DNA from: Pseudoalteromonas sp. MEBiC 03607
GTDB lineage: Bacteria; Pseudomonadota; Gammaproteobacteria; Enterobacterales; Alteromonadaceae
NCBI RefSeq assembly: GCF_004792295.1
Contig: NZ_SRRY01000001.1
Coordinates: forward strand, 3,355,501-3,419,500
Length of the DNA stretch: 64,000 nt
Direction: 5' to 3'
A program made the translations under genes and the position numbers. Below, in pieces: positions 13,948 to 64,000 of this stretch. Each line of letters begins with the position of its first letter. The first letter of the stretch is position 1. A model generated the notes under the pieces. The model was given only the letters and a program-made list of their open reading frames with translations. It was not told the origin of the DNA and did not search any database.

Positions 13948-13956
13948 TTTTGAGAC

Positions 13957-14205: not shown

Positions 14206-14214
14206 ACCAACATC

Positions 14215-14290
14215 TAGACAAATATGACTAACACAACAACAATTTAGACAATTAAGTCTAACATGTCAACACATCAGACCTATTTGTCTA
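14215..14290 (-). promoter_or_regulatory. Promoter with concentric palindromic operator of the dynamin-like operon
   Basis: Leftward promoter: -35 TTGACA (14269-14264), a 17-base spacer, -10 TAAATT (14246-14241). The spacer is overlapped by TAGACAATTAAGTCTA (14245-14260). Flanking it at equal distances are TAGACAAATA (14215-14224) and TATTTGTCTA (14281-14290), exact reverse complements. Both repeats share one centre, 14252.5, and half-sites are spaced 30 bp. This is a classic repressor layout; the HTH of the operon's GTPase is the obvious candidate ligand. Confidence 0.75.
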
Positions 14291-14404
14291 AATTTTTTAC
14301 GTGAAATGTAAATTGAGAACTGTACAGCTCAGCACGCAAGGAATACAAATACCAAGGTTGGGTAATGCTTTCTCAGAAGTTCAATGGTTATTTCATATCG
14401 ATAT

Positions 14405-14431
14405 AGAAGGCTTTGCATCACAAAGCCTTCT
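14405..14431. terminator. Perfect 11-bp hairpin between traN and the dynamin-like operon
   Basis: AGAAGGCTTTG and CAAAGCCTTCT (arms 14405-14415 and 14421-14431, loop 5 nt) lie 16 bases after the traN stop. No clear U tract follows on the minus strand, so it may act as an mRNA 3' end or a Rho-type barrier rather than a textbook intrinsic terminator. Confidence 0.55.
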
Positions 14432-14446
14432 GTTCTAAGAGTGCAC

Positions 14447-37708: not shown

Positions 37709-38890
37709 TCAGGATACCTCTGCCGGTTTGTTTTTTAGCGCTTCAGCCGCTTTTTGCAGCGGCCCTTTTAAAGCTTTTTCTAACTTAGTCATCTGCTCTA
37801 AGTGCCATGCAACCGCTTTGGGCCACGTATCTTTATTGAAGCCATCAGCTTTGGTCGAAAACTGAATACGACAAGATTTCTTTTCATCCAATCTCATCCA
37901 TTCAAGCTCCGCACCAAATACTTGTTCAATTTCCTGTTTGGACTCAAGCAAGGAATCAAAGAGATATTTATTCTCTTCGGTAATCCCACGGCTAATCCAA
38001 AGCTCAACTCTAAGCTCTTTTTGCAGAAAAATCAGGTTATACGGACAACCACTCAGTCCAGAACCGGCTGATAGCCAATGATCTTTACTCGGGCTAATGT
38101 TGTTGTAGAGCTGGCACGGACTTTTCTGAAACGCCTCTAATGCTCGCTCCCAGTATTCGCGACGCACCGTATGACGGTTTTTCAGTACCACTTCGGTCGT
38201 TTTTTCTTCCGCTTCTTTGGCATTAATACCGATCATCAGCTCCTTCGCTTCGGGCGTGGGGATGATCTGGTCAATATTGATGAGTAGCTGCTCACCCAAC
38301 GAATAAGGGGTAATTTTAAAGCATGCAATACTAATACCTTGCCCCAATAGCCAAAGTGCAGTACTGGTCACTTCTTTGCGAAAGTTTGCCGCAACTAACA
38401 TAATACGCTGGCTGTTACCTAGATTGAGCTTGACCTCATCCAGATCTGGCGCATCCAGAAATTCGCAAATTCTTTGACTGGCATTAAGTTCAGCAACCTG
38501 CGGGACATTTAACGGGTCAACATCTCCTGTTACAGGTTCATAGCGGTCCAAGTACTGCTGGTAGATTTCAACTATTTGCGCCTTGGTCAAACTGGCGCAA
38601 TAAGAGGCATATTTAAGTGCCTGCCAGACCACATCACGGCCGCTGTCATCCAGTTTATTTTCAATGATGACCAAGTTGCCATCTTTATCTAGCGCAAGTA
38701 AATCTAAACGTTCGCGGGTATCATCAAAGCCATCGAACTCCTTTTGAATAATTAATAACTCTTCACCCAGCGCAGAAGGCTCATGCGCCAACCATTCCTG
38801 AAGGTGTTTTCGCTCAGAAAAGCCAAGCTCACTGAACTTCTTTGCCCTAACAGGACTAATCCTGTTGGTTTGATGATTTACCGTGAACAT
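37709..38890 (-). CDS. PD-(D/E)XK nuclease-like protein with DUF4268-like C-terminus, 393 aa
   Basis: Residues 55-95 contain RLDLLALDKDGNLVIIENKL, then DVVWQALKYASYC. The Asp and Glu-x-Lys fit the PD-(D/E)XK active site of Holliday-resolvase/RE-like nucleases. The C-terminal half (WERALEAFQKSPCQLYNNISPSKDHWLSAGSG) matches the DUF4268 style of predicted restriction proteins. It is the last gene of the hotspot-5 cargo, 71 bases after the 808-aa gene, in the same orientation. It could be the nuclease arm of that unnamed system, or an independent defence gene. Confidence 0.7.
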   Translation of the reverse strand: MFTVNHQTNRISPVRAKKFSELGFSERKHLQEWLAHEPSALGEELLIIQKEFDGFDDTRERLDLLALDKDGNLVIIENKLDDSGRDVVWQALKYASYCASLTKAQIVEIYQQYLDRYEPVTGDVDPLNVPQVAELNASQRICEFLDAPDLDEVKLNLGNSQRIMLVAANFRKEVTSTALWLLGQGISIACFKITPYSLGEQLLINIDQIIPTPEAKELMIGINAKEAEEKTTEVVLKNRHTVRREYWERALEAFQKSPCQLYNNISPSKDHWLSAGSGLSGCPYNLIFLQKELRVELWISRGITEENKYLFDSLLESKQEIEQVFGAELEWMRLDEKKSCRIQFSTKADGFNKDTWPKAVAWHLEQMTKLEKALKGPLQKAAEALKNKPAEVS

Positions 38891-38961
38891 GGTTATTTAT
38901 CCTATTACTTAGCACTTTTTACCGCTTCAATTTCATTTACAGAATTATTTAACAAAGCCAT

Positions 38962-41388
38962 TTAGCAACTGAGCAAAATCGCATCTCTAGAGTCGGGATT
39001 TATCTCTTTCCATCGCTTGATTAATGTTGTGACGCAGGGGTTACCCGCAAGCTGATTCATACGAACCCAATCAACATCTAGCAAATCAGCAAGTAATTCG
39101 ATGTCCAATTCACCTTGCAAGGTGTGCCATTGTCGGATGCTTGGCTGTCTCATCAACTGAGCTTTTGGAGAGGTTAATCCACCGACAACAAAATATCCCT
39201 TTTCTTTGTCGTACCATATGCGTTGAATACCCGGTATGTTACTCATCCAGCGTTTGATGTCGTTTAAAGGCTTATCGAAGTATCGAGATAACAAGGTATC
39301 TAAACTACCACTGATTGATGTATCTTTTTTCTTACCTCGCTTATCTAACCAACGCTGAATAACCTCTTTTTTCACCTGATAGTAAGTCACCTTCGTTTCA
39401 TTTTGCTGATGGAGCGAAACTAATTGTTCTTGCCATAATTCAACTAATTCGGGTAACTCACTTTCAAATCGCATTGTTGCCTTTTGGCTGGATAACACGC
39501 CATCATCACTCAACTCTTTGACAATATTGAGCAATACTTCACTATCTGGCAGCACCCAATCCGTCAACGGATAAGGCTTCTGTTTCTTGGTTAAATCCGA
39601 AAGCGCATCTTCCATACCCAGTGGCAATACATTCGTTTGGTCGTAAGATGGATCTTGCATCATGATTGATACTTGTTCGTCCTTATCCTTACTCAAAACA
39701 AGCGTAATTCTTGCCGCAAATCGTCGTTGTTTATCAACTTCAGTACCGTAGTAATCCATTACGACATTCTGACGATAACTATAGGGCCAATTCTCATTCA
39801 TCAAAGTGAGCAAATCATCTACGGATGTTTCGAAATTGGCCAGGTACTCATTTGTTTTCAAAGTCATACCAGAATCAGTGGGATAGAAGGGGATCAACAC
39901 CGGTCTGTCGTTTGAAACCGTAAACAAATAGCCATCAGTAATGACAATGGTTGATTCGTTTAAACAGGCGCGTTGCAATGGCAAGACTTGAGAAACAGGC
40001 CTATCAGAATCAATCAGTAAACGTTTGATCTCTAACTCTTTAAGTACCACTTCAAGCTTTCTAATAATCGCTTCTTTGTAAGCTTTAGTATCTAATAAGT
40101 CGAAATTGTAAGTGTAATATCCACCTTCAGACGCAACGTATAGCTTTATCGGGTCATCGTCTCTTTTTGATTCGATTAACAACCCTTTTTCGACTGGGTC
40201 TCCCGTGACATCATGAGGATTAACGTTGATATGTTGAACTGCACACCGTCCAACTAGCGACTTCGTTAGTGGATAACGATCATCTTCAATACCTTTTTCC
40301 TGATCTAGCAAAATCAAAACGCGGTCCGAACGATCAAGCTTTATCCGTTCAAAGTCATCTGGTGCAATGCCCTCTAGCAAATCCCATGAAACATCGACGC
40401 CTTTCTGTGCAATGAGCGATTTAAATAAGTCTAAGATTTCTTCACAAGCAACAACGGTATTAACTCTTAGGTCTATAACCTTGATTTCACCGGATATCTC
40501 GATGCTTGGGAAAGATGACTTAGCCTTATTGGACTTATGCTTTGTTTTCAACGTCAGTGGTTGGAGATTTAATGTTTTAGCTGAAAGTTCAAAACCATAG
40601 TCACGCGCAAAACGGATAAACGCATCTTGCACTGGTTTTAACACCATAGGCCAACTTTGCTCAAACCTCTTTGGCGTAGAAAGATCCAGAAACGGTCGCT
40701 GTTTACGTGAATTTTTACTCTTTCCAATTTCTTTAAACAGCGTACCTCTCGGTTTTCTTTCATGGCCAGGATACCACCTGACGAGTACCTTATTTTTGTC
40801 ATAGACCCATAGAGGCTTCTTAATGCGATCTATATCATCGTCATTAGATAACGGTCTTAATGGAACATTGGTATAAAACAGAGCAATCTCAGTGGTATTT
40901 CCATCTTTTAACTGCTGAGTTCTACAATCTAGGCTGATCGCATTGACACCGCCAGCCCAGCTATCTACTTTCAATAACGGACAACCTAAGCTGTAAGCAC
41001 CTTTACAATGACCGCCAAAAGCCCGCAATGACCGCATCATTAGTCGAATCCACACAGGATTTAACACCGGTGAATATTCAACTCGAACTGGAGTAATAGG
41101 TTGCAACTCAGCGTCTACAATAGACGGAGGAATATCACTTGAACTTTGTAAAGCCACATAGAGACCAAACTGATTACCATTTTTTTTCATTAAATAGGCA
41201 AACTGCCGACTGTCTAGCTCAGCATCGATACGTTCTTCCCAGGCTTTCTTCTCTTTCCACTGATAGTTGTTATTGATGAGTGGATAGTGATAAACCACAA
41301 ATTTGTTGGCTTTATCTGCATCAACCTCGCTATTCAAATAAACCAAATGAGACAGCGGCAACTTCCTCAAATCTTTATTTTTATCCAT
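38962..41388 (-). CDS. Unknown 808-aa protein coupled to the large helicase (possible Argonaute/pPIWI-like)
   Basis: No confident family. Residues about 60-180 are beta-rich (FGLYVALQ, VNAISLDCRTQQL, EIALFYTNVPLRPL). Around residues 360-400 the segment RVLILLDQEKGIEDDRY.., with LTKSLVGRCAVQHINVNP, recalls the end of an Argonaute MID domain (a Y-x-x-x-K-x-n-Q pattern). The last 150 residues look like winged-helix DNA-binding modules (VIQRWLDKRGKKKD; RWMSNIPGIQRIWYDKEKGYFVVGG). I do not see PIWI catalytic residues or the Arg/Glu signature of pPIWI-RE proteins. The start (MDKNKDLRK at 41388) overlaps the helicase stop by one base (TAATG), so both are made together. Confidence 0.45.
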   Translation of the reverse strand: MDKNKDLRKLPLSHLVYLNSEVDADKANKFVVYHYPLINNNYQWKEKKAWEERIDAELDSRQFAYLMKKNGNQFGLYVALQSSSDIPPSIVDAELQPITPVRVEYSPVLNPVWIRLMMRSLRAFGGHCKGAYSLGCPLLKVDSWAGGVNAISLDCRTQQLKDGNTTEIALFYTNVPLRPLSNDDDIDRIKKPLWVYDKNKVLVRWYPGHERKPRGTLFKEIGKSKNSRKQRPFLDLSTPKRFEQSWPMVLKPVQDAFIRFARDYGFELSAKTLNLQPLTLKTKHKSNKAKSSFPSIEISGEIKVIDLRVNTVVACEEILDLFKSLIAQKGVDVSWDLLEGIAPDDFERIKLDRSDRVLILLDQEKGIEDDRYPLTKSLVGRCAVQHINVNPHDVTGDPVEKGLLIESKRDDDPIKLYVASEGGYYTYNFDLLDTKAYKEAIIRKLEVVLKELEIKRLLIDSDRPVSQVLPLQRACLNESTIVITDGYLFTVSNDRPVLIPFYPTDSGMTLKTNEYLANFETSVDDLLTLMNENWPYSYRQNVVMDYYGTEVDKQRRFAARITLVLSKDKDEQVSIMMQDPSYDQTNVLPLGMEDALSDLTKKQKPYPLTDWVLPDSEVLLNIVKELSDDGVLSSQKATMRFESELPELVELWQEQLVSLHQQNETKVTYYQVKKEVIQRWLDKRGKKKDTSISGSLDTLLSRYFDKPLNDIKRWMSNIPGIQRIWYDKEKGYFVVGGLTSPKAQLMRQPSIRQWHTLQGELDIELLADLLDVDWVRMNQLAGNPCVTTLIKRWKEINPDSRDAILLSC

Positions 41389-44300
41389 TAACCTTGCTCC
41401 CTCATACGCTGCCAAACTATTTTCGAAAACCACTTGAAGCCAGACGTCATTTGATACTCATCGTTCACCAAACAACCTGGTAGAAACAGGATTGAAGCAT
41501 TCTCAACTTTTACTGGCTCCAACATTTCAGAAAAGCCAGATAAGGTACAATCTTCACCAGTTAATAGATTCGCGATAACCAAAATGGCGTTTTCACCACG
41601 GATTTGACGAATCTTCTCCAGCTTCTTAATTAATCCCAAAGGCGCAAATTCAGGATGTTTGCCTGAAGCAAGCCATTGCTCAAAGCCTTCATCTGACTGT
41701 TCCAGAGCAGCAATAGACCAAAATTTCGCATCAACAAAAACATCCGCGTTGGCTATCTCAAAATCATATAGTTCAAATAGCTCATGGTTGTAGACGTCTT
41801 GTTTAGTGGCTAGCTGCTTGTCACTTAGCAATGCGCGAATGCCTTCCTCACCAATACGCCCTTGTAAAATTCGCTGAATCACAACGGGATGAAATGAGAA
41901 TTGCTCTTCAATATCGTTGGCAAACGGCTGAAACGACGTTCGAAAACCTTTACGATTAAACCAATCCGAAATAGCAGGTTGCCTATTAACAACCTCATAA
42001 AGCGTCTGGGGGTTATACTTAATCAATCCCGCTGCACGCTTTGCAAAGAACTGCCAACTTTTTGGGTCGTACCATATTTCACCAGTAACCTTTGATTCCT
42101 CGGGCCGTTCAAAGCACGCCCAACGACACAAAGGCTCAATAATGCCAAACGTATTGTTATGCGGCATCCATTGGAGATCATGCTGTAATACAGCGCGGCC
42201 TAATTCATGCCAAAGTCCTGAAATATCTTCGATACAACCCTTACCTTGTCGTGCATCTCGGATAGCGGAAACTAACTTATTATCAATAATATCTACCGCA
42301 CCAGAGCCATCTTGGGAGCGCGTTTTCAACAGGGCAAGAAAGTTGGAAACCGATGCATCTTCGGAATGAGTAAGATCATCAATCAGCTGATTATTAAGGT
42401 TTGAAACCCAATTTCGGTTGTTAGTACAAACGGTTAATTGGCCGTAGTTGCGAAGATGGCCTGCTACATCATCGCTTAAATGAATAGCGACATGGGGCAC
42501 ATACGTCCAAGCACGTTCAATACGACCAACTTGCTGCTGCACGTCAGCGGCAAGATTCTTAACGTAGTCATTTGTCGCTTTGTAGAGCTTGTTTAGTTCC
42601 TGGATTTTAGCGACTGAGTTATTCATTAACGGCATAATAAATTGCCGCTGCTGCTTACGTGAAAACTCTGAACGCCTGACTAATTTTTCTAAGTTTCTGA
42701 GCTGAAAGCCAGCATGAGACATTTCGTCATCATCGTCATTGCTATCCCATGGTGAAAAGTAAAAGTGCTTACTTTCAATAATAAACAGCGACGTCAGATC
42801 CATCTGCCCTTGAGAGTTAGGCAAGGAGTAATCCAAATTAATGCCATTGGTAGCGGATGCAGTTTGTGTCATTACCACCACGGTACGGCCAGAGTCGAAC
42901 GCCGCTTGATATGCGTGCTCAAATCCTTCTCGCTTTTGTGCTTCAGCATTGAGCAAGCAAATCATCATGGGCTTGCCGTTGACAGCCAAAGGAATAAACA
43001 CATCGTCAAATGAAGACAATACTCCAGTGGTTAAACACTCCATTTCAAGCCAATCAGCGCTCATTCTGCTGTTCTCTGCGGTATCACTTATCAACCACTT
43101 CCGAAGGTATTTGACTGAGTTAACAAAGGCCAGGTGCCCTTTATGTTGTGGCTCATTCGCTGCCAAATGCAGAACGTGCAGTAATTTAAACAACACAGAC
43201 TGCCGGTATTCATACTTGTAATCTGAGTGCTCAGCCTCAAAAAATGCAGCGTTCAAATGCAGTTTTGCCTCCTGAAAAACTGGGGCATTGATAGCATCAT
43301 CAAAGTCGTGGATCGTGGTTTTTAGTGTCGAGCGACGCTTTTCAGATTTATCTTTAACCAACGAGCGGATCACCGCCATTTGTAACTGCTTATCCTCGTC
43401 AGTTTGTAAATATGGAATCGGCTTCTTAAACCAATCTTCGGGGCGCTGCTCAAAGCTATCGCCCAGAAAACTCTCGGTACATTGTGGATTGCGGGCCTGA
43501 GCCACGTAACGCAAAGCGCTTTCAATCCAGCGTATATCGAAATGACCAATCCCCCTTTCGATATAAGAGGTTGCGGATAGTGCAAAAACCAGGTTCCGAC
43601 TCGATAACGAAACCATTAACCCTTCAGGCGTTGTCGGCAATAGTGCGCGTTTAATCTTGATCCTCAACGGGTCAATATCCGCCTCGGCTTCATCCGTGGT
43701 TAACAGCCAGGTTGTTAGGCCAAACATATTCGTCTGAGTATTAGGTAATAGGTTTGATCTACTGAGCGCTTCTAACTCAGGTAAGCTTGTGCGAGGTAAT
43801 GAGAACAGCGATAAACTGGGTAACGCTGTGCTGTAGTAGGATGGTCGATAATCGTTCGCGGGGTCGAACAGTAACCGGTTTAGCCGAACAAGATATTCAT
43901 AAGCTTCGGACTCATCGGTCGCGAACTGTGACAACAGCAAACTGAAGCGTCTGATATATTTCTCCATCACACGCAAAAAATCACCAACATCAACCGATAC
44001 ATCATCGCTTTGCTCATAACTTTTCACTTCAAAGCCATGAGGTTTTTGCTGTAATTGCAAAGGCTCACTGGTTACTAAGTGGTCTGAGCGAAACAGATAT
44101 TTCTTTTCGAACGGAACACCGGATTCATACTGTTTTAAAGGCATTACCAGTGCCCTAGACTGATTCAGATCGACTCCTTTGCTGATCAAATCCTCCTCTA
44201 GCTCCGCAATAAGCTGTTTAAGCTCACTGTAAAGCTCAGGTATAGGTTCAGCAGTAACAAACTGCATTCGCGCTAACAGGCGCTTACCGCCTTCAAGTAA

Positions 44301-45269
44301 TTGACCAATACACTCAGGCGGCTCTTGCACCATTTGGGACTGGGCAAGTAATGTCTGTAGAATGTCCGCTTGGTAATCAAACTCATCAACAAATACAACC
44401 TTTCCGGCCAGTTGGCCGCTCGACATTCTGACTTTCTGTTTACCGTCGTAAAAGGAAGCGAACAGCTTCTGCGTTGTTAACACCAGCAAATGTTGCTTAT
44501 CATCGTGCCAGGCAATCGCCGGGAAAATTCGACGCACCCATTTATTTTCTCTGAATAAACGAAGCTTTTCTTTTGCTTGCTCTGTGAGCTCATGCGTCTT
44601 GCCATGGTGCTTACTGGCATACTTCACAGCCTTCTCTAAGGACGACATGCACCCAAGTAGCGTCCGTTCGACAAAGCCACACAGTTTTCTTAGTTCCTGC
44701 TCTTCTCGTTCGAGTAAGACGCCCATCGAATCAGGGTTTTTCTTTTTATACTCAACATTACGGGCGATTGCTGAAACGTTGTGGCAAGCACGGACTAGAG
44801 CCTCTTTATCAGCATTAGAACGAAACGCACCTAAACCATGAATATCCTCAATGGCCTTATAAGGATCGGGCAAGTCAGACTTTTGAACACCTTGTTCATG
44901 TGGCAGTGCTCGTTGCGAAACCGCACTAACGACAGTTTCATCCTGTGCATAAAGAATACTAACCAGCAAGGGGTTACCCGAGCTGTCTTTTTCACTCGTG
45001 GCACTTTCATAAATGTCATGCAGGATATTCCAGCGATGGGTAACTAAGATGGCCTGCAACCCTTTGGATTTTATAAATTCAAGGCTCGCAGGTATCTTCC
45101 CGCCCGGGCTACGATAAAGAGAACTACTTTTGCCACCGCCTGTTGGGCCTTGCAACTGGCAAAAGCCAGCAATAGCATTTTCGTTCTTTGCATTAACCGA
45201 TAGAGCAAGTGCTTGCTCAATCGTATGCGCAATGATTTGATTATACGAAGTCGGTATTGGCTGACTCAT
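41388..45269 (-). CDS. Large SF2 (DinG/Cas3-like) helicase of unassigned defence type, 1293 aa
   Basis: Helicase motifs in order: Walker A GPTGGGKSS at residues 41-49, motif Ia ILVTHRWN (74-81), Walker B VFVDEFDYQ (292-300), motif III-like FALSATSY (about 565), motif V VVMTQTASATNGINLDY, and motif VI QQVGRIERAW (about 945). Insertions between motifs are long and unrecognised. No nuclease motif is obvious. The motif spellings fit DinG/Cas3-type helicases. It is translationally coupled to the 808-aa gene, and a PD-(D/E)XK gene follows. A 97-base gap separates it from res. Helicase plus Argonaute-like plus nuclease is the content of pPIWI-RE cassettes and recalls DdmDE; membership is unproven. 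Confidence 0.6.
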   Translation of the reverse strand: MSQPIPTSYNQIIAHTIEQALALSVNAKNENAIAGFCQLQGPTGGGKSSSLYRSPGGKIPASLEFIKSKGLQAILVTHRWNILHDIYESATSEKDSSGNPLLVSILYAQDETVVSAVSQRALPHEQGVQKSDLPDPYKAIEDIHGLGAFRSNADKEALVRACHNVSAIARNVEYKKKNPDSMGVLLEREEQELRKLCGFVERTLLGCMSSLEKAVKYASKHHGKTHELTEQAKEKLRLFRENKWVRRIFPAIAWHDDKQHLLVLTTQKLFASFYDGKQKVRMSSGQLAGKVVFVDEFDYQADILQTLLAQSQMVQEPPECIGQLLEGGKRLLARMQFVTAEPIPELYSELKQLIAELEEDLISKGVDLNQSRALVMPLKQYESGVPFEKKYLFRSDHLVTSEPLQLQQKPHGFEVKSYEQSDDVSVDVGDFLRVMEKYIRRFSLLLSQFATDESEAYEYLVRLNRLLFDPANDYRPSYYSTALPSLSLFSLPRTSLPELEALSRSNLLPNTQTNMFGLTTWLLTTDEAEADIDPLRIKIKRALLPTTPEGLMVSLSSRNLVFALSATSYIERGIGHFDIRWIESALRYVAQARNPQCTESFLGDSFEQRPEDWFKKPIPYLQTDEDKQLQMAVIRSLVKDKSEKRRSTLKTTIHDFDDAINAPVFQEAKLHLNAAFFEAEHSDYKYEYRQSVLFKLLHVLHLAANEPQHKGHLAFVNSVKYLRKWLISDTAENSRMSADWLEMECLTTGVLSSFDDVFIPLAVNGKPMMICLLNAEAQKREGFEHAYQAAFDSGRTVVVMTQTASATNGINLDYSLPNSQGQMDLTSLFIIESKHFYFSPWDSNDDDDEMSHAGFQLRNLEKLVRRSEFSRKQQRQFIMPLMNNSVAKIQELNKLYKATNDYVKNLAADVQQQVGRIERAWTYVPHVAIHLSDDVAGHLRNYGQLTVCTNNRNWVSNLNNQLIDDLTHSEDASVSNFLALLKTRSQDGSGAVDIIDNKLVSAIRDARQGKGCIEDISGLWHELGRAVLQHDLQWMPHNNTFGIIEPLCRWACFERPEESKVTGEIWYDPKSWQFFAKRAAGLIKYNPQTLYEVVNRQPAISDWFNRKGFRTSFQPFANDIEEQFSFHPVVIQRILQGRIGEEGIRALLSDKQLATKQDVYNHELFELYDFEIANADVFVDAKFWSIAALEQSDEGFEQWLASGKHPEFAPLGLIKKLEKIRQIRGENAILVIANLLTGEDCTLSGFSEMLEPVKVENASILFLPGCLVNDEYQMTSGFKWFSKIVWQRMREQG

Positions 45270-45365
45270 CTAAATCCTCGTTAACTTGATATTCCTTTTG
45301 AGTTTCGCCCCTTTTTCAGAAGGGGCGACAAGGTTGGAGACAACACAACACCAACAAATGACTCA

Positions 45366-48017
45366 TTAATTCAATTCAGGCACGATCTCTTGTGACCAAC
45401 TGTCTTCCATCAGCATTCTGAACGACATACCACCCGATGCAGCTTCCAACGTAAGCTCACCAGCATCTACCGCCGTCTTGACGTGCTCAGTTAAAAGTTC
45501 AAACAAACGGCGTTTGTACACAGTGTCGTCATTCCCTTTTAAATGCTCGCCCTTGGTTTCCAACACAGAGAATCGGTAACTGCCAGAGTCCGGCTGTTCG
45601 ACGCACACCAACAAGTCAGGGTAAACCTTTTGCTTTTGCCAGCCCTGTAGGCTGTACTCACGCTGATTTACCGCAATGCGATGCCACCAATACACAGACT
45701 CTTGCTTATCCAAATACCAAGCTGTGTCGCGCTCTAAATTGTTCAGCCCATTTTGATAGACCTTTTCGAACAGGCTTTTTTCAAGTTCAGATCCATCTTT
45801 GCGGCGAAGCACCTGATCATGCTCACTGACATTAACCTCTAGGGTTTGCGCCAACTCCCAATTTAGCTTTTCGTTATCAGAAGCAAGTAGACGTAGGGAA
45901 ATATCCCCCTTGTCCAACTTAGACCTGAAGATTTGCTCCGATAATTGCGCAACCTGCTGTTTAATATCGCGCTTCATTTCTTTGAGTAGCTCAAGGCGGT
46001 TAGTAAACAGCGCTTCCTCTGTAACCCCATTGCTACGTAAGGTGTCTAAGGTGTACGTTAACACCCGCATGGCTTGCCATGGGTTTGGAATAACATCGGT
46101 GAGCTGCCTTACCATAAAGGAGATATCCAGGCCTGCACTGGGGTCAAACTCGATGTTTTCGTGAACCGGATCGGCCAAGTCCAATTCGCCTTGGTTATCC
46201 TTGGACATTTTGTAGTCGATACGGGCAATCGTGCGCTGTAATTTGTCGTCCACTAACTGGAAGTTCTCAGCGTTCAAATAAGACAACGACTCCCAATCTA
46301 GGTCACCCAGCACATCCCGTTCATAGTCAAACAAGCGGAAGCCGTCTTTGTAACCTGCATCACGATGCAAAACCCGAGGCAGGAATATTTTAGGGAGGTT
46401 ACGAAAACGTTCTCTACGCAATAAGGTTTCTTTGCTCACTACTGCGGCGGGTTTATTGGCTTCTGTAGCTTTAACTTGATTCGCCACATCTCCCATACCT
46501 TCTTCTTCTAAACCTTGCTTAACACCCGCAACGGCTTCCATCACATCCTGATCAAAGGTGTAGACATAACACTCATCTAAACTTGGTTTTTGCGTCAATC
46601 GCGCATGTGGTTGACGTAGCACCCGGCCAATCATTTGGGTGATTGCCGTTTTTGCGGTCATTTTAGACAACACGGTTAACACATAAGCAAAGGGGCAATC
46701 CCAACCTTCACGTAGCGCATCCTTTGTGATGATGTATTTAACGGGGCACATTTCGCTGAGCAAATCATCATCACCCAACTCGTCTTTGTCAGACGTTTTC
46801 AGGCGAATTTCATTTTCATTCACGCCCAGTTTTTCCATCAAATACTCACGGGCGTCTTCCGCATGCACAAAGGCTGAATCTCGTTGGTCTTTACCTGTGC
46901 GCTCAACACGGATCAGCATGATGGGGCGAATATAGCGACCGGTTTCGTTTTGTAGCAGCCCGGCATCCTGTTCAAGCTCTGCCAATTTAGCGTGCGCAAG
47001 CGACAAGGTATGCTTCCACTCGCTTTTATCTTCGTTGATTAAGTTGATGGGTAACTTAATCATTTGCTCATCTTTCAACGCTTGCCCAGACACATTCACC
47101 AGTACATTTGAGTGATGCTTACCGTTAGCGTTAGGCGTGGCCGAGAGCTCAAGAATAAACTTAGGGTTAAAGCCACACAGGGTTTCTCTTGCGGTTTCGC
47201 TATAGGCTTTATGCCCCTCATCCACAATAATCACAGGGCGAACCATACGTAACACATTGCCCAAGCTTTGTTTGACTGACACTGAGCCTGGGGCTATGCC
47301 TTCTTGCCAACCGTAATCGGATAGATCGTTACAATCTAAATTGCGAATACTGCTTAGCAACGCCTCATTGGCTATGGTGTCATCTTCAATCGGGAAGAAG
47401 GTAGTAAATCGCCCGCTATCGCGGAACATGCGTAGTGTTTCTTTCGATTGACGCGCACTGGATTGCAGCATCAACAACATAACGCACAGGTTTTCGTCGG
47501 TATCTCGCTTGGTAAAGGCGTCGTTCTTTTCGAGCATTTTGACTCGTCCACCCGAAGCACGCTCTAACATTTGGCGATACGGATGCTCACGATTAGCCAA
47601 CTGTTTCCAGGTTTGCTTGTAAATGGCATCCGACGGCACTACCCAGAGCACCATGCCGGTTTGTTGGGTAAACAAATCAGTTTGCAACCGCTCAACCGCC
47701 GCCACGCCAAGTAAGGTTTTACCACCACCCGTCGGCACTTTCAGGCACACGTTAGGGATTGGCCTCTCTAAACCGTCAAATCTTGTGACATAAGGCGCAG
47801 GCACCAAGTGACCGCTTTTGTCTTTAAGTAGGTCAATACGGCGCTCCTGTACCAGAGCTTCCCACGACTCTTTGGCGTAATCGGTTAAGCGGGCCTCTTT
47901 GCCTTTCATTTTCTGAAAAGCAACAAAGTCTTCCGCTTCTTCCTTGGTGTCGGCCAGCTTTTTCAGATAATAGTCCAGCTTATCCAACACACCATTCTGG
48001 TAGTCTTTTAACTCCAT
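45366..48017 (-). CDS. res: Type III restriction subunit Res, 883 aa
   Basis: The N-terminal helicase has Walker A VPTGGGKTLLG (about residue 85), VIIVDEGHKA (DEGH) and IGRVLRQPHAR (motif VI). The C-terminal endonuclease has YPDLLVCVEQPDSG and VLETKGEHL, giving the PD-x(n)-ExK site. Type III Res translocates on DNA and cuts 25-27 bp from the site with Mod. I place the start at the ATG at 48017 (MELKDYQNG), one base after the mod stop; the frame extends 17 residues upstream into mod, without support. Confidence 0.9.
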   Translation of the reverse strand: MELKDYQNGVLDKLDYYLKKLADTKEEAEDFVAFQKMKGKEARLTDYAKESWEALVQERRIDLLKDKSGHLVPAPYVTRFDGLERPIPNVCLKVPTGGGKTLLGVAAVERLQTDLFTQQTGMVLWVVPSDAIYKQTWKQLANREHPYRQMLERASGGRVKMLEKNDAFTKRDTDENLCVMLLMLQSSARQSKETLRMFRDSGRFTTFFPIEDDTIANEALLSSIRNLDCNDLSDYGWQEGIAPGSVSVKQSLGNVLRMVRPVIIVDEGHKAYSETARETLCGFNPKFILELSATPNANGKHHSNVLVNVSGQALKDEQMIKLPINLINEDKSEWKHTLSLAHAKLAELEQDAGLLQNETGRYIRPIMLIRVERTGKDQRDSAFVHAEDAREYLMEKLGVNENEIRLKTSDKDELGDDDLLSEMCPVKYIITKDALREGWDCPFAYVLTVLSKMTAKTAITQMIGRVLRQPHARLTQKPSLDECYVYTFDQDVMEAVAGVKQGLEEEGMGDVANQVKATEANKPAAVVSKETLLRRERFRNLPKIFLPRVLHRDAGYKDGFRLFDYERDVLGDLDWESLSYLNAENFQLVDDKLQRTIARIDYKMSKDNQGELDLADPVHENIEFDPSAGLDISFMVRQLTDVIPNPWQAMRVLTYTLDTLRSNGVTEEALFTNRLELLKEMKRDIKQQVAQLSEQIFRSKLDKGDISLRLLASDNEKLNWELAQTLEVNVSEHDQVLRRKDGSELEKSLFEKVYQNGLNNLERDTAWYLDKQESVYWWHRIAVNQREYSLQGWQKQKVYPDLLVCVEQPDSGSYRFSVLETKGEHLKGNDDTVYKRRLFELLTEHVKTAVDAGELTLEAASGGMSFRMLMEDSWSQEIVPELN

Positions 48018-48018
48018 G

Positions 48019-49845
48019 TTACGCCCCCATAATGCGATGGATGGCGTAAGGCAACTGGCAAAACTCAATGCGTTTCTCAGTTAAGTCTTTCTGGCTCATA
48101 AACTTCGCCACAGCAAAGACAATGGTGCGCTTCTTCGTAGCATTGTTTTTCGCTATAACCTCGACTTTGTCCGCGTTTAATGCCGCTTCATTCGAGCGCA
48201 GCCACTCGCTATCTGGGCGATAGAACAGATGAATACGGAATAAGTCTGTTTCGCCGATAAAACCATCGGCAGAGGCTTTCGCGACCGTTTCTAACGACTG
48301 ACCAGTGGCGGTATAAAACACATAACGTGCGAGCGCGTCGAACGACGGCATGACATCGCCGGTGAGTAAACTTTCAATTTGAATCGGTTCGCCTAAGGTG
48401 CAATAGGTAAAACTGCCACCAATGCCAGGGGAAAACTCATCCACTTTGCGCTCACCGGTGACAGTGAGCACACCGTCTTTGAGCTCTTTTTTGATTTTGT
48501 CGAAATCTTTGCTGTGTTTTGCTTCAACTTTGGCTATTTTTTCAAGGAGTTCTGCGTGCTTTTTCTCAAAGACCGACCAAGTGATTTTTTCAGAAAGCAG
48601 TTCTTGCTTCTGGTTGCCTTTGAAGGGGCATCCGTTGATAACACGGCGAACGCGTTCTGCTGTCACCTCGTCCGCATAATCCTCACATTCAATCAGAATA
48701 AATTTACGATTACCTTCGTCACTCTTATTGGCTTCCAACACAGCGTGCGCCGTCGTACCTGAACCAGCGAAAGAGTCGAGGATGATTGATTCTGGATCAG
48801 TGGCTATTTCGAGGATTCTCTTCAACAATGTTACAGGTTTGGGCGTGAAAAACTCGACACTGTCATTGCCCATGATATTTCGAAGCGTTTTCTTAGCTTC
48901 ATCCGTATGGCTTGCAAAATCATGCGGCCACCATGTACTTGGTACAGTGCCACCACCACCTTTTAGAGCATGTTTATATCTTTTAAAGGCGGGAGCTCCT
49001 TTGCCGTCTTTTCCCCAGTAAACTAGACCATTTTGAATATTTTCTAGATGACGTTCTTTAGAATACCGCCATACCGAAGTCTTTTTGGGCCAAATTTCTT
49101 CCCCTGTATTCGGGTTGATAACTGGATAATAAAGATTAGGGCGTTCGTCTGATGTCTTATTACAGGTGTAATTATCAATTCGATATACGCCATTTTGATC
49201 TTCATGCCTGTAATTTGAGTCATTCCCTTCAGTTCTTTCTAATAAATTACGTTCGAAGCTCTCAGATTTTCGATACACCAAAACATGATCATGCATTGCT
49301 GAAAATCCCTTAGCATCATTCGACGTTGCATACTTTTTCTGCCAAGCGATGTGACCATAGAATGATTCTTCTTTTTGAAAGATTTCATCGAGTATCATTC
49401 GGAGACGATGTTGCTCATTGTCATCAATAGTTACGAATAGCACACCATCGTCTGCTAGCAATTCGTATAACAGAATTAGCCTCGGCCACATCATGCAAAG
49501 CCATTTGTCATGACGTTCCATATCTTCTTTATCAACAGGATTGGCTGACTTTTTCAGCCATTCCTGCATCAATGGTGAGCGTACATTGTCGTTATAACAC
49601 CACCCCTCATTGCCTGTGTTGTAAGGCGGGTCGATAAAAATGCAGTCTACTTTACCGGCATGAGTCGGCAGTAACGCCTTAAGGGCTTCAAGGTTGTCGC
49701 CATGGATGATGAGGTTGTCATCCAGCGATGCCGCCTTGCCTTCCTCCGGTAACGATTTATCTGCAACCACTTTTAGTTCACGAAACGGCACACTCAGGTG
49801 GTGTGAATAAACAAACTGCTTACCTTTAAAATCCAATGTTGGCAT
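48019..49845 (-). CDS. mod: Type III DNA methyltransferase Mod (N6-adenine, beta class), 608 aa
   Basis: Motif IV DPPYNTGNEG (about residue 75) precedes motif I LDSFAGSGTTAHAV (about 355), the order of beta-class m6A methylases. The variable region between them sets the recognition site. It methylates one strand of an asymmetric site and forms the restriction complex with Res. It is the second gene of the island's operon, 21 bases after the WYL regulator. The recognition sequence cannot be read from the protein. Confidence 0.92.
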   Translation of the reverse strand: MPTLDFKGKQFVYSHHLSVPFRELKVVADKSLPEEGKAASLDDNLIIHGDNLEALKALLPTHAGKVDCIFIDPPYNTGNEGWCYNDNVRSPLMQEWLKKSANPVDKEDMERHDKWLCMMWPRLILLYELLADDGVLFVTIDDNEQHRLRMILDEIFQKEESFYGHIAWQKKYATSNDAKGFSAMHDHVLVYRKSESFERNLLERTEGNDSNYRHEDQNGVYRIDNYTCNKTSDERPNLYYPVINPNTGEEIWPKKTSVWRYSKERHLENIQNGLVYWGKDGKGAPAFKRYKHALKGGGGTVPSTWWPHDFASHTDEAKKTLRNIMGNDSVEFFTPKPVTLLKRILEIATDPESIILDSFAGSGTTAHAVLEANKSDEGNRKFILIECEDYADEVTAERVRRVINGCPFKGNQKQELLSEKITWSVFEKKHAELLEKIAKVEAKHSKDFDKIKKELKDGVLTVTGERKVDEFSPGIGGSFTYCTLGEPIQIESLLTGDVMPSFDALARYVFYTATGQSLETVAKASADGFIGETDLFRIHLFYRPDSEWLRSNEAALNADKVEVIAKNNATKKRTIVFAVAKFMSQKDLTEKRIEFCQLPYAIHRIMGA

Positions 49846-49866: not shown

Positions 49867-50850
49867 TTAATTCTTATGATTAAATTCTGTAGTCTGAGTT
49901 GTACACGGTGTTTCATTGCTATAACCGGGTGCGATTGAGAGATTTTGTACACCATACAGCGCGGCACGATTGTTCAATGCCAGTTGGCATTGACTGGTTG
50001 ATAAGCAAGCACTCTCGGAGCAGTCGACATTCCAGAGTCTAAGCAAATACCCCGCTGTTGCTGCTCTAATCTCAACCTTCATCACGCCACCTTTCATGCC
50101 ATAATCCAGTTCGATCGCTTCACTGTGCTCTATGCGCGGATGCGGCACTAACTCCAATTCAACAAAGCGGTTCCATTGTCGGTCTTGGGTTTCGAGCTCA
50201 CTTTCTTTGATAACAGAAGGCGACAAAGTGGAATCTTCAAGCACAACCGCTTCTTTAATTCGGGTCAGAACAAAGTCTCTGAATTCACCATGCTTGCGGT
50301 CAAAACCACGAACGTGCCAACGCAGGCCATTGTCCACCAGCGTATGCGGCACAATTTCTCGCGTGGTTTCACCGCTCGATAACGACACATAGGTGATACT
50401 CAAGGCTTTACCTTTGTGGATGGCCTCGGTGACTTTCGCCACTATCGATAAACTCGGCTTGTTAAGGTGATAAGGCGCTTCACACGCAAGAGGCGGTTTT
50501 ACCTTTCCAGTGAAGCCATCGCCGTACCCTTGGCTGATGGTTGCCAGTGTTCGAACAACGTCATAGTCGAACAAAGGTTCAAATGCATCACCACGTTTAT
50601 GCAACTTGAGCTTTTGGTCATACTCAATGTTGCTTGGTGCAAGCTCTCGGTACATTGTGAAGTCTTTCGTTGCCTGAGCGGCGGCTATACTGAAGCGATC
50701 GACTAAATCCGCTCGCACCGCTTCTCCCTTAAATAATAAGGTGAAATCAATGTGGGCAATGCGATCCCTGGTTGCTTGTGGCAACTGCGCTATCTGCGAA
50801 AGCCTGTCTGGCTTCGCCACTACCGTTTGTTTCAGACCATCATTTGTCAT
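49867..50850 (-). CDS. BrxR/CapW-like WYL-domain transcriptional regulator, 327 aa
   Basis: The N-terminal half is a winged helix-like region, then KALSITYVSLSSGETTREIVPHTLVDNGLRWHVRGFDRKHGEFRDFVLTRI (residues about 145-200), the WYL domain, followed by a WCX-type end. BrxR and CapW proteins of this shape repress defence operons and are released by nucleic acid or nucleotide ligands. As first gene of the hotspot-5 operon (21 bases before mod) it likely controls the type III system and perhaps the whole island. Confidence 0.8.
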   Translation of the reverse strand: MTNDGLKQTVVAKPDRLSQIAQLPQATRDRIAHIDFTLLFKGEAVRADLVDRFSIAAAQATKDFTMYRELAPSNIEYDQKLKLHKRGDAFEPLFDYDVVRTLATISQGYGDGFTGKVKPPLACEAPYHLNKPSLSIVAKVTEAIHKGKALSITYVSLSSGETTREIVPHTLVDNGLRWHVRGFDRKHGEFRDFVLTRIKEAVVLEDSTLSPSVIKESELETQDRQWNRFVELELVPHPRIEHSEAIELDYGMKGGVMKVEIRAATAGYLLRLWNVDCSESACLSTSQCQLALNNRAALYGVQNLSIAPGYSNETPCTTQTTEFNHKN

Positions 50851-55848: not shown

Positions 55849-55870
55849 TTTGAGTGCACAGGAGATAAGT

Positions 55871-56845
55871 ATGTTTGTACTAGGCGTAGATATCGGTTAC
55901 TCAAACCTGAAGCTGGCAATTGGCCAATCAGGCAGTGAACCGAAAACCATTATTCTGCCTGCGGGTGCCGGTCCTGCGGATCGTATGCCGGAGCGTATCG
56001 GTGGAGGCGATGATGAAACTTGTTTGTATGTGTCTGTCGATAATGAGCGTTGGGCGGCAGGTGTGCCTGCTGGACGCCTTCAAGGCTGGGAACGAGAGCT
56101 TCACCCGGAATATCCCACCACAAAAACCTATAAGGCGCTTTTTCATGCCGCCTTGTTAATGGCTGAAACAGAATCCATCGATTTGGTTGTCACTGGATTA
56201 CCGGTTTCCCAGTTTCATGAACCACAACGTAAGTCTGACCTTGTGCAGCGTTTAAAAGGTGTCCATCAAGTGACGCCTAAGCGCAGCATCACTGTTCATG
56301 ACGTCAAAGTGCTGCCGCAGCCTGCCGGTGCCTATATGGATCTGGTTCAAACAGGTGGTGATTTGGGCTTGATTGAAGAAGGTCGCGTCGTCGTCATAGA
56401 TCCAGGCTTCTTTTCTGTTGACTGGGTTGCCCTTGAGGCCGGAGAAATTCGCTACAGCTCATCAGGAACCAGTCTTCAGGCAATGTCCGTGCTACTGGAA
56501 ACGATTGATAAGCTGATTTCGGAAGATCATGGTGCCAAAGTGGGTATGGATCGACTTGAAAAAGCCATGAGAACCGGCGACTTGCAGGTGCTGCTATTTG
56601 GAGAAAAAGTCGATATTTCACCTTATCTGAATGCTGCCATGAAAAAGGTAGCGCCTGTTGCTCTTACAGCCATGCGCCAATCCATGCGTGACGAAAGCAT
56701 CAATGCGGACTTGGTTTTGATCGCCGGAGGGGGAGCCTTGGCTTATAAGGAAGCGGCCAAAGAGATTTTTTCACGAAGCAAGATCATCGTGCCGGAACAG
56801 TCTGTTTTGGCGAACGTCCGAGGCTTCTGGTTTTATGGGGCCTGA
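55871..56845 (+). CDS. srpM: SrpM, ParM-like actin-type partition ATPase, 324 aa
   Basis: Actin-fold motifs are visible: phosphate-1 GVDIGYSNLKLAI at the N-terminus, phosphate-2 VVVIDPGFFSVDWV about residue 170, and adenosine motif VLIAGGGALAYKEA near 290. The filament pushes copies of the excised ICE apart. R391 srpMRC was shown to stabilise the element. The start at 55871 has GGAGATAAGT upstream; the ORF could extend 7 residues from a TTG. srpR follows after 2 bases. Confidence 0.88.
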   Translation: MFVLGVDIGYSNLKLAIGQSGSEPKTIILPAGAGPADRMPERIGGGDDETCLYVSVDNERWAAGVPAGRLQGWERELHPEYPTTKTYKALFHAALLMAETESIDLVVTGLPVSQFHEPQRKSDLVQRLKGVHQVTPKRSITVHDVKVLPQPAGAYMDLVQTGGDLGLIEEGRVVVIDPGFFSVDWVALEAGEIRYSSSGTSLQAMSVLLETIDKLISEDHGAKVGMDRLEKAMRTGDLQVLLFGEKVDISPYLNAAMKKVAPVALTAMRQSMRDESINADLVLIAGGGALAYKEAAKEIFSRSKIIVPEQSVLANVRGFWFYGA

Positions 56846-59570: not shown

Positions 59571-61700
59571 TTAATATTGAGCCAGCGTAAAACTCATTTT
59601 CCTGTCTTTAGTGTTTATTTTTTCTAAAACTACACGGATCTTTTTACCGAGCGTAAACTTCGTATTTTTGCTTGCTAGCAGCTGTCTATCGGCATCAAAC
59701 TCAAATTCCCCTAGAGTTTCAGACGAGATCATCCCCTCAACACCGCTGTCTTTTAACTCTACAAAAACACCAAAGCTGGCTACCCCGGATACGCTGGCCT
59801 CAAATGTCTGTCCAATATATTTTTTCATATACTGGCATTTAAGCGAAGCCTCAACTTCCCGACTAATTTCATCGGCTTGCCGCGATTGTAATGAGCAATG
59901 AAGGCTGAGCTGTTCCAATTCGCTAAAGGAATATGGATAAACTTGCTTATCGATTGGAGTCGGCTTAAATTTTTCGAGGCTTAAAAAGCCGAGTATTCTA
60001 TTCAGCGTGCTATTTTCTTTACTTTGAATCTTTGCTCGAATCGCTCTATGCGTTATCAAGTCAGGGTATCGACGAATAGGAGAAGTGAAATGAGCATAGG
60101 CATCATAGGCCAAGCCAAAGTGCCCCTTATTCTCGACTGAATACTCTGCTTGGCTCTGTGAGCGGAGCAATAGTAACCGAATCACATCGCCATCAGAACG
60201 ATGCTCAATTTGACTTAACAGTGCATTATAGTCTTTAGTCGTAGGGTTATCGTCACCACCTAACATTAACCCTTTTTCAGACAAAAGTGATTTGAGTGAA
60301 GATAGCTTTTTCGATTGCGGTCCTGCATGAACTCTAAACAAACTGTTCACTTTATGCTTTTCCAAAAAATTGGCTGTTGCTACATTTGCAGACAACATAA
60401 ATTCTTCAATCATGCGGTGTGCATCATTTCTATCAATGGCGGTAATAGATTCAATTTTACCTTTTTTGTTTAAATTTAGTTTACGCTCGATTGTTTCAAA
60501 CTCAATCGCGTCACGGCTTTTACGGACCTTATTTAGTAGGTTATAGAGTGAGTGTAAATTCTTAATGTGTGGAATAATATTTTTCGCATTTTTTATTTGC
60601 GATTCTCTCCCTGTGATCACCCTATTAGCTTGTTCATAGGTGAGACGAGCATGAGAATGAATGACACCTTCAGTAAACACAGCTTGCGTCATTTTTCCCT
60701 TTGAATTTATTGTCATATCACACACTAATACTAACCTGTCTTGATTTGGATTCAGTGAGCATAGCCCATTTGACAGAGATTCAGGTAACATAGGAACCAC
60801 CAAACCAGGACAATAGATAGACGTTGCCCGAGTTTGCGCCTCAACATCAAGTATATCGTCTGGCTTTACATAATGTGACACATCGGCAATTGCAACTAAT
60901 AGACGCCAGTCTCCAAGCTGAGTACGTTCACAATAAACCGCATCATCAAAATCTTTGGCATCTTCGCCATCGATCGTCATAAAAGGTAAATGACGATAGT
61001 CGATTCGCTCCTTTTTATCATCTTCACTAACTTGCTGGCCAAGTGATGCCGCTTGAGCAACAACGTCAGCACTCCAAGTATGGCAGGCTCCATGACGAAG
61101 CAACGCCAGTTTTGTTTCAAGACCTGAGCTATTAGGCTCACCAAGGACTTCTGTTACACCAACAAGTGCTAGTTGTCGACGATTGGGATAATGGAGGATT
61201 TCACAATTAACATATTGTCCAATCTTAGCTCCAGCCAAGCGACTTCTGTCAACCGATAGTGGATGACATATTTTGGCATTGTCTGCTAACAGAATTATCT
61301 TATTACCGCTCTTTTTCAGAATACCCGCCACGTGCGTCGTATTACGTGTGACAACATTTATCAGTTTGTGACTAGATCTTTTTAACGAGGCTGGAGATGG
61401 CAATACTTTCACTGTATCGCCATCAAATACGTGCTTTAATTGATTCTTAGGTAAGAAAAGGTCTTTCTCATCCGAGTTATATTTAACAAAGCCAAAACCA
61501 TCAGCGTGAATACTTATTGTACCTGTTACTAGGTTGCTTTGATCGATAACTTGATAGCCACTAGTGGCTTTGAACAAGAGCTGGCCATCACGTTCCATAG
61601 CGCGTAATCGCCGCCTAAGCGCTTCTTTTTCTGTGACTTTTTTAAGATTTAAAGCCTGAGCGATTTGTTCTCGATCGAGGTGTTTTTTTACATTAGCCAA
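59571..61700 (-). CDS. RNase R/VacB-like 3'-5' exoribonuclease, 709 aa
   Basis: Domain order: an N-terminal winged helix and cold-shock domain (GTISIHADGFGFVKYN, about residue 62-75), the RNB catalytic core with TIDGEDAKDFDDAVY (about 245), RRYPDLITHRAIR (about 550), and an S1 domain at the C-terminus (GQTFEASVSGVASFGVFVELKD). Chromosomal RNase R is longer, about 800 aa, with a basic tail that is absent here. The gene is AT-rich and shares its strand with the csp gene next to it. It is likely mobile cargo rather than the host's housekeeping copy. Confidence 0.85.
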   Translation of the reverse strand: MANVKKHLDREQIAQALNLKKVTEKEALRRRLRAMERDGQLLFKATSGYQVIDQSNLVTGTISIHADGFGFVKYNSDEKDLFLPKNQLKHVFDGDTVKVLPSPASLKRSSHKLINVVTRNTTHVAGILKKSGNKIILLADNAKICHPLSVDRSRLAGAKIGQYVNCEILHYPNRRQLALVGVTEVLGEPNSSGLETKLALLRHGACHTWSADVVAQAASLGQQVSEDDKKERIDYRHLPFMTIDGEDAKDFDDAVYCERTQLGDWRLLVAIADVSHYVKPDDILDVEAQTRATSIYCPGLVVPMLPESLSNGLCSLNPNQDRLVLVCDMTINSKGKMTQAVFTEGVIHSHARLTYEQANRVITGRESQIKNAKNIIPHIKNLHSLYNLLNKVRKSRDAIEFETIERKLNLNKKGKIESITAIDRNDAHRMIEEFMLSANVATANFLEKHKVNSLFRVHAGPQSKKLSSLKSLLSEKGLMLGGDDNPTTKDYNALLSQIEHRSDGDVIRLLLLRSQSQAEYSVENKGHFGLAYDAYAHFTSPIRRYPDLITHRAIRAKIQSKENSTLNRILGFLSLEKFKPTPIDKQVYPYSFSELEQLSLHCSLQSRQADEISREVEASLKCQYMKKYIGQTFEASVSGVASFGVFVELKDSGVEGMISSETLGEFEFDADRQLLASKNTKFTLGKKIRVVLEKINTKDRKMSFTLAQY

Positions 61701-63144: not shown

Positions 63145-64000
63145 TCAGCGTAGCGGTATGCTTCGTAAGTGTGTTTCGATTGCTTCAATCATCGATTTGG
63201 TAAGCGGTAAATGCGCTTTTTCTTTCGCCCATACCTCATGAAAGCCTGCTACGGTTTGTTTGGCGGTATCTAACACCAATTTTTCTGGTAGCATGGCTTT
63301 AGCTGCTAGGTGTGATAACTCATCTAGCGTGAAATCACTGAATTTCTTGCTACGGCTCACCTTCAACGAAGCACTATCATCGGGGATATAAGGAATGGTC
63401 GAGACAAAGTCATAAGCAGGTGCTATCGATGCTGTGAGCTTATCCTTATAGATCACAGACCAATTCTTCAAATGCATATCTGCATTTCCAATTAGCGTAT
63501 TGAACACCAATCGGCGAGTAAATTCTGCGATATCATCGTCTTGGCCTTCGATGCCGATAACCTGAGCAATATTCCGCATACTCGCTTTTTTGTATTTATC
63601 TTGAGGATAAACGCCAAACACTTGCGCAAAGTCCTCAATGTGCACAGCTTGACCATCTGCACGGTCAAAACGTTTGATCACAAACGCACTGTCACCAAAT
63701 TTACCAATACCATTTGGGATATTAGCAATCTTATTAATAGGGAGTAACTGCGTTTCTGGCACATCCATTCCCAACATTCGAGCCAATTCCATCATTGAAT
63801 ATTCATTTTCTGGCACAGCTTCAAATCGAGACGACGGTAATTTTACAATCCAAGAACCACCTTGACCGGTTGCTGGGATCGTCAAACCGCCATTTGCCTG
63901 CTGCACAGCTGAAAACTTCAATTGCACTCCCGCCAATGAAAAACGCATTGGCCCATCTGTCTTCGTTTCATCTTCTATGTCTTGATGCACATTAGGTGGT
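63145..64000 (-). CDS. hipA: HipA-family Ser/Thr kinase toxin, C-terminal part (partial)
   Basis: The frame is open to the window edge; 285 residues are visible and the N-terminus is missing. HipA signatures: SLAGVQLKFSAV, KLPSSRFEAVPENEYSMMELARMLG, FVIKRFDR (ATP-binding), the catalytic loop NADMHLKNWSVI and the metal-binding YDFVST. HipA phosphorylates GltX and is neutralised by HipB, whose gene would lie to the right. R391 has a hipAB-like pair that aids ICE stability; whether this one belongs to the ICE, to an older element or to the chromosome cannot be told. Confidence 0.85.
   Translation of the reverse strand, partial: PPNVHQDIEDETKTDGPMRFSLAGVQLKFSAVQQANGGLTIPATGQGGSWIVKLPSSRFEAVPENEYSMMELARMLGMDVPETQLLPINKIANIPNGIGKFGDSAFVIKRFDRADGQAVHIEDFAQVFGVYPQDKYKKASMRNIAQVIGIEGQDDDIAEFTRRLVFNTLIGNADMHLKNWSVIYKDKLTASIAPAYDFVSTIPYIPDDSASLKVSRSKKFSDFTLDELSHLAAKAMLPEKLVLDTAKQTVAGFHEVWAKEKAHLPLTKSMIEAIETHLRSIPLR

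Follow-up and report, generated by a model that had tools for sequence, protein, structure and literature searches.

A probable DdmDE/ApsAB-like pair of antiplasmid genes in an SXT/R391-type conjugative element

The stretch of DNA analysed here (the window) comprises 64,000 nucleotides of Pseudoalteromonas sp. MEBiC 03607 and carries an SXT/R391-type integrative and conjugative element (ICE). Within it, two adjoining genes encode a 1293-amino-acid (aa) helicase-nuclease and an 808-aa Argonaute-like protein, the helicase-partner pair considered here. Three open reading frames (ORFs) had been called from the sequence alone at 37709..45269; all were confirmed at those positions on the minus strand, as was the coupling of helicase and partner by TAATG: the 808-aa gene starts inside the helicase stop codon. 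(An alternative 823-aa frame for the partner gene, extending to 41433, begins at a GTG within the helicase gene and is probably a spurious start.) The helicase and 808-aa ORFs are real coding genes under purifying selection: the ratio of nonsynonymous to synonymous substitution rates (dN/dS) was 0.05-0.13 in three comparisons for each gene, a fourth comparison (L020) being saturated and without value. Upstream of the helicase, on the same strand, lie the res and mod genes of a type III restriction-modification (RM) system and a WYL-domain regulator; the MobH and SXT-type TraD genes lie downstream.

The helicase and its partner

Judged by its profile matches and motifs, the 1293-aa protein is a DdmD-type superfamily 2 (SF2) helicase with a C-terminal PD-(D/E)XK nuclease, homologous to DdmD. 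PADLOC returned DdmD (E 2.9e-9), with the best stretch covering residues 1060-1193 only. A phmmer search of the PDB (E up to 1) returned only five distinct sequences, all entitled 'Helicase/UvrB N-terminal domain-containing protein' (best E 2e-9); because DdmE is also present in three of the matched entries (8u3k, 9bgk and 9ezy), the matched chains were taken to be DdmD. Profile-profile comparison of the helicase family with the DdmD family gave 99.7% (E 3.7e-27) over 882 columns, and the same family compared with the neighbouring res subunit (hhalign) gave 4.4% over 20 columns.

The full set of SF2 motifs read from the sequence alone (GPTGGGKS, VDEFDYQ, SAT and QQVGRIER) is present. All 16 motif residues checked are invariant throughout the 21 sequences of the window's own group, a set that includes the window and many near-identical ICE copies. 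A comparison of nine diverse helicases likewise shows no variation at the Walker A, DE, SAT, Q..GR..R and D..DxK residues. Because these residues are invariant across the compared helicases, the protein looks to have an intact motor and an intact nuclease of its own. A tree of 17 helicases (midpoint-rooted, hence arbitrarily, with several rows on long branches) places the window's group of ten apart from the other seven, which are five DdmD-type sequences and two intermediates, with 100/100 support on a branch of 2.52.

The 808-aa protein appears to be a remote, nearly full-length homologue of DdmE-type partners. Neither it nor nine family members had a credible match in Pfam, PADLOC or NCBIfam, and searches of the PDB by phmmer or with the family profile returned nothing for it. 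Homology emerged from a comparison of two alignments: A5, nine rows of the 808-aa family; and A6, nine DdmE-type partners encoded beside DdmD-type helicases, whose profile recovers the solved Vibrio cholerae and Lactobacillus casei DdmE from the PDB. These align collinearly over nearly their full length (97.5%, E 8e-12, 606 columns). In a parallel comparison the match scored 73.9, whereas none of 40 column-shuffled copies exceeded 22.9 and the reversed alignment reached 22.0; two unrelated helicase profiles scored 23.8 and 21.6 in the same test. The helicase profile against the A6 set gave 1%.

Conserved residues also align. Five residues of the 808-aa protein (D370, Y372, Q385, K450 and K455) are invariant in all 22 family members. 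Of these, D370 and Q385 coincide with an invariant D and Q of A6, spaced by 15 in both alignments, and K455 coincides with the invariant K of the A6 KEL-IK helix. The conserved D/Y/Q/K residues agree with the MID pocket of a prokaryotic Argonaute (pAgo), and D370, Y372, Q385 and K455 support the MID-like middle segment proposed from the sequence alone. Near the other end of the protein, the C-terminal DVDWVRMNQLAGN aligns with the DdmE-type C-terminus (for example, VDFVR in L049 and L050).

No Pfam Piwi model was found in the 808-aa protein or eight relatives at E up to 1, a search in which the filters of HMMER drop most matches above about 0.1. The best candidate for a first-strand acidic residue, D485, lies in a strand chosen from a weak model, and is D in 15, E in 4 and N in 3 of the 22 members. 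On both counts, the Piwi model and the candidate acidic position, the protein does not match a canonical catalytic pAgo.

Table 1. Features of the pair and its neighbours, in window positions
Feature	Position	Strand	Basis or conservation
DdmD-type SF2 helicase with C-terminal PD-(D/E)XK nuclease, 1293 aa	41388-45269	minus	PADLOC, PDB, profile-profile
Walker A GPTGGGKS, residues 41-48	45126-45149	minus	T43, G46, K47 invariant 21/21
Walker B VDEFD, residues 294-298	44376-44390	minus	D295, E296 invariant 21/21
Motif III SAT, residues 565-567	43569-43577	minus	invariant 21/21
Motif VI QQVGRIER, residues 912-919	42513-42536	minus	Q912, G915, R916, R919 invariant 21/21
Nuclease signature D1169..D1180-x-K1182	41724-41765	minus	E1166, D1169, D1180, K1182 invariant 21/21; conserved in the DdmD rows of alignment A4
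Argonaute-like, distant DdmE-like partner, 808 aa	38962-41388	minus	profile-profile with DdmE-type partners
MID-like segment, residues 370-455, D-x-Y-x12-Q ... KEL-x-x-K	40024-40281	minus	aligned with D-P-Y...Q...KEL-IK of V. cholerae-type DdmE
C-terminal DVDWVRMNQLAGN, residues 771-783	39040-39078	minus	D771, D773, R776 invariant 22/22
DUF4268 / PD-(D/E)XK protein, 393 aa (PADLOC candidate PDC-S11)	37709-38890	minus	neighbour, not core; Pfam, PADLOC
Type III restriction subunit (res)	45366-48068	minus	neighbour; PADLOC REase_III, E reported as 0
Type III methyltransferase (mod)	48019-49845	minus	neighbour; PADLOC MTase_III, E reported as 0
WYL-domain regulator	49867-50850	minus	neighbour; Pfam WYL

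Linkage, carrier element and distribution

The pair stays together across loci. A search of the host's order found a DdmD match in 14 of 394 genomes, including the window's own; the other 13 neighbourhoods are L041-L053. At all 12 DdmD-type loci with a continuing contig, a same-strand partner ORF starts no more than 25 bases from the helicase end (L043, with a broken helicase, is counted; L048, whose contig ends inside the helicase, is left out). The 808-aa family accounts for three of these 12 (L051-L053), the other nine being DdmE-type. In a collection of genome contigs, both genes are complete at 11 of 14 loci; contig ends cut the remaining three, one of which (L012) also lacks the first 80 helicase residues.

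The neighbours vary. Of the 25 loci compared, one being the window, 18 allowed a verdict on the DUF4268 gene, the others ending too soon or being interrupted (L001, L003, L004, L008, L011, L012 and L013). It is present, each time directly before mobH, at five (the window, L002, L010, L018 and L022); the other 13 retain the pair without it (L005, L006, L007, L009, L014, L016, L017, L020, L021, L051, L052, L053 and L065). The window's type III RM system, or as much of it as the contig holds, is found at ten of the 25, counting the window. A different type III RM system (39% and 31% identity) occupies the same place at L007 and L009, remnants of res remain at L003 and L012, and the system is absent at ten loci (L005, L014, L016, L017, L020, L021, L051, L052, L053 and L065). 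Because the DUF4268 nuclease and type III RM genes vary between loci, the core is the helicase-partner pair. The sequence-only reading had envisaged a possible three-gene cassette, with conserved linkage among its members; that linkage holds for helicase and partner but breaks down for the third gene.

Several neighbours are known defence genes. Among nine chosen neighbour proteins, eight matched PADLOC (1e-5): Gabija GajA and GajB beside L014; a cyclase of a cyclic-oligonucleotide-based antiphage signalling system (CBASS) at L005; Shango SngB on the Salmonella plasmid L016; type III RM at L007; and two weak matches at L053. Nuclease and UvrD genes like the Gabija pair of L014 are also annotated at L020 and L021. 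At L053 a very large ORF (1941 aa, 11926-17751) overlaps the 3' end of the partner gene, as does a cut one at L051 (2-4303); the start of the L053 ORF resembles SAVED/LmuA-type effectors and a later part Avs1b, with weak E-values. The window's WYL regulator shares 27-32% identity with the WYL proteins found next to the helicases of L041, L042, L043, L045, L046 and L048. Since WYL proteins are common in defence islands, their association with DdmD-type loci may be a general one.

Between res and the helicase gene lies a gap (45270-45365) with an inverted repeat, CGCCCCTT...AAGGGGCG, whose arms match perfectly and which lacks a T tract; GAGG precedes the helicase ATG. Promoter and terminator scans yielded fewer sites than shuffled sequence, and their results were not used.

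The carrier element is an SXT/R391-type ICE, because it holds a MobH relaxase (412.8 bits), an SXT-type TraD (TIGR03743, 759.5 bits), MobI and a 413-aa tyrosine integrase (the last two by Pfam); this is the setting that had been proposed from the sequence alone, with the relaxase gene adjoining. UmuD- and UmuC-like genes are also present. An actin-like gene (55850-56845; Pfam ALP_N, with PRTRC_D and ParM models below their cut-offs) suggests active partition of a plasmid-like form of the ICE. Past the integrase lie RNase R and HipA-like genes (59571-61700 and 63145-63990). The insertion site of the SXT/R391 family is prfC; that of this ICE may differ. Hotspot 5 of the family is presumably the site adjoining traI. 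A hotspot-5 insertion in a Proteus ICE is reported to encode two hypothetical proteins, a DNA methyltransferase and a helix-turn-helix protein (PMC7606855).

The carriers of the pair are ICEs, chromosomal islands and plasmids, and other defence genes are often close by. A relative of the 808-aa gene from E. whittamii finds a match in 26 of 5,426 Escherichia coli genomes; in 25 the match spans at least 80% of that relative, and the 26th genome carries the ICE form at 95.5% DNA identity. The 808-aa gene itself is found in six of 72,556 plasmid records, two of which are Proteus mirabilis records of over 4 Mb with a 97.3% copy (the one inspected holds ICE genes). The 808-aa family is present in five of the 394 genomes of the order, and among 369 genomes of the class the 808-aa protein matched two and the helicase profile three; the third helicase match, 48 positions with stops, was taken as chance. 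Searches aimed at ApsA-type helicases covered 343 genomes from the family of E. whittamii and 12 from its genus, and the E. whittamii system was all that they found. Scans of viral contigs found no relative of the 808-aa family or of the helicase.

Three observations concern other carriers. A partial helicase match occurs in 140 Salmonella plasmid records, none of which is among the six with the 808-aa gene; among the 34 matches listed, it falls into 3-4 pieces that cover residues 1-949 at about 53% identity. Decayed helicase copies on plasmids would fit an antiplasmid function. In Proteus mirabilis H110 (L018; 2290-4802 and 10492-23677), predicted aph(6)-Id, aph(3'')-Ib and sul2 genes lie about 6 kb from the WYL gene. 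At L065 (G391; 5746-12456) the pair adjoins integrase-like and UmuC-like ORFs, named by eye from the sequence, and is apparently on another kind of mobile element.

Weighing the function of the pair

The pair is likely to be a two-gene antiplasmid system of the DdmDE/ApsAB kind, of a divergent branch, housed in an SXT/R391-type ICE beside the relaxase gene. In V. cholerae, DdmE is described as finding plasmids by means of DNA guides and recruiting DdmD to translocate and cut (PMC12409362). The system that removes plasmids in E. coli is ApsAB; its helicase and MID residues are reported to be needed, and a nuclease mutant to have a partial effect (PMC11096173). By analogy, the 808-aa protein would be a strongly diverged pAgo without catalysis, whose MID-like pocket would hold the 5' end of a short nucleic-acid guide and so mark plasmid DNA. 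It would then recruit the helicase-nuclease, which would load on the displaced strand, translocate with ATP and cut by its C-terminal D..DxK domain, and the plasmid would be lost. The use of a guide, the recruitment step, the choice of strand and the plasmid target are carried over from the published work on DdmDE and ApsAB. What the present analysis shows is the pairing, the order and intactness of the motifs, the homology of the helicase to DdmD, purifying selection on both genes and their mobility close to other defences; by profile-profile comparison it also points to a remote homology between the partner and DdmE-type proteins.

Several points weigh against this reading. The long branch (2.52) parts the window's helicase group from the DdmD side. 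The link between partner and DdmE depends on the mix of rows, and the alignments are shallow: the seven closer DdmE-type rows, without the intermediates L049 and L050, gave 90.8% over just 142 C-terminal columns, and these intermediates alone, against the 808-aa family, gave 14.5%. In HMMER searches, the profile of the 808-aa family recovers neither DdmE from the PDB nor, with a best E of 0.5, any DdmE-type partner from the neighbours that were fetched. The Lys of the Y-x3-K motif varies (position 376 is K in 13, Q in 6, T in 2 and R in 1 of 22), and where the ApsB motif has QG the window's protein has QH, with His following the Q in all nine rows of A5. AlphaFold models of the 808-aa protein are poor (mean predicted local distance difference test scores, pLDDT, of 41.7 and 51.4), and fold searches with them were not discriminating.

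Hotspot 5 of SXT/R391 ICEs is, moreover, known as a store of antiphage systems (PMC12409358), and the pair lies at the traI/mobH side of an element of this family. The pair might accordingly be mainly antiphage, with the partner sensing phage DNA and the helicase-nuclease degrading it; the adjoining type III RM system, and relatives beside Gabija, CBASS cyclase and Shango genes, would suit such a role. However, the tested relatives act on plasmids, and the ApsAB report records no activity against eight phages (PMC11096173), which leaves a mainly antiphage role unlikely. No helicase relative occurs in 50,697 phage records, a result that says little about the target.

It is still less probable, and indeed improbable, that the pair serves the ICE's own biology, for example by protecting or processing its own DNA in transfer and plasmid-like replication. 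The neighbouring mobH and traD genes speak for such a role, as does an actin-like gene (Pfam ALP_N), given which the ICE may pass through an extrachromosomal phase that needs managing, but relatives occur elsewhere (on E. coli chromosomes beside Gabija-type genes, on plasmids and in other chromosomal contexts), and the tested relatives destroy replicons. The three-gene cassette, in which the DUF4268 PD-(D/E)XK protein would be the effector nuclease, has the slightest claim and was rejected. The DUF4268 gene does lie downstream of the pair in the window and at L002, L010, L018 and L022; however, it is missing from the majority of the judged loci (13 of 18) that keep the pair, the helicase bears an intact nuclease motif of its own, and PADLOC lists the DUF4268 protein separately, as PDC-S11.

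If the antiplasmid reading is true, an ICE with a plasmid-like circular stage must be spared, which would give a handle on how DdmDE-type systems discriminate self from non-self replicons. The pair could also decide which plasmids coexist with the ICE, and the antiplasmid function would itself become transmissible, being carried by a broad-host ICE whose family spreads drug resistance. The descriptions of V. cholerae DdmDE and E. coli ApsAB place both on chromosomal islands. A diverged partner that keeps MID-like residues also helps to tell the essential parts of DdmE from the rest. More tentatively, the pair may stand beside DdmDE as a branch of its own among guide-directed antiplasmid systems, and serve as a conjugative ICE's weapon against rival plasmids. 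Among the titles and starts of abstracts listed, none describes a system like DdmDE or ApsAB in an SXT/R391 ICE, subscription literature lying mostly outside that scope.

Comparison with known systems

Two systems share features of the locus without matching the pair. The type III RM system (mod and res) is adjacent and on the same strand, but is a separate system; the comparison of helicase and res gave 4.4% over 20 columns. The pPIWI-RE cassettes share with the window a content of helicase, Argonaute-like protein and nuclease, and had been invoked from the sequence alone for that reason. However, pPIWI-RE Pfam models matched neither the helicase nor the 808-aa protein nor its eight aligned relatives (E up to 1, with most matches above about 0.1 dropped by the filters of HMMER), and the nuclease gene is not constantly linked; the pPIWI-RE reading was rejected on these grounds.

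ApsAB of E. coli ST38 likewise consists of a helicase-nuclease protein and an Argonaute-like protein, and its motif VI, published as QAVGRVER, has GRxER in common with QQVGRIER here (PMC11096173). GRxER is absent from the six other helicases of alignment A4; since ApsAB was compared by its published motifs rather than its sequences, the shared GRxER is a lead only. Some islands that hold apsAB-like operons are reported to have Shango as well (PMC11096173), and the related Salmonella plasmid locus L016 has a Shango SngB gene. Differences are also apparent: the published ApsB MID motif, Y-x3-K..QG..K, is present in part only (Y372, Q385 and K455); and ApsA is longer, with residues named to at least 1435 (PMC11096173). 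An ApsAB homologue just 28/25% identical is reported to remove plasmids as well (PMC11096173).

DdmDE of V. cholerae and L. casei shares the two-gene operon, in which an SF2 helicase with a C-terminal PD-(D/E)XK nuclease is followed by a pAgo-like partner; a WYL regulator is described nearby, as in the window (PMC12409362). The two systems differ in that a long branch sets the window's helicase group apart; in that the partner, with some 687 aa in V. cholerae-type systems, has 808 aa here and is not found by HMMER; and in that the window's pair is ICE-borne, beside a type III RM system. The helicases are homologous, the partners appear so by profile-profile comparison, and the resemblance to DdmDE first noticed in the sequence alone is supported: the helicase matches DdmD, and the partner appears to be remotely DdmE-type.

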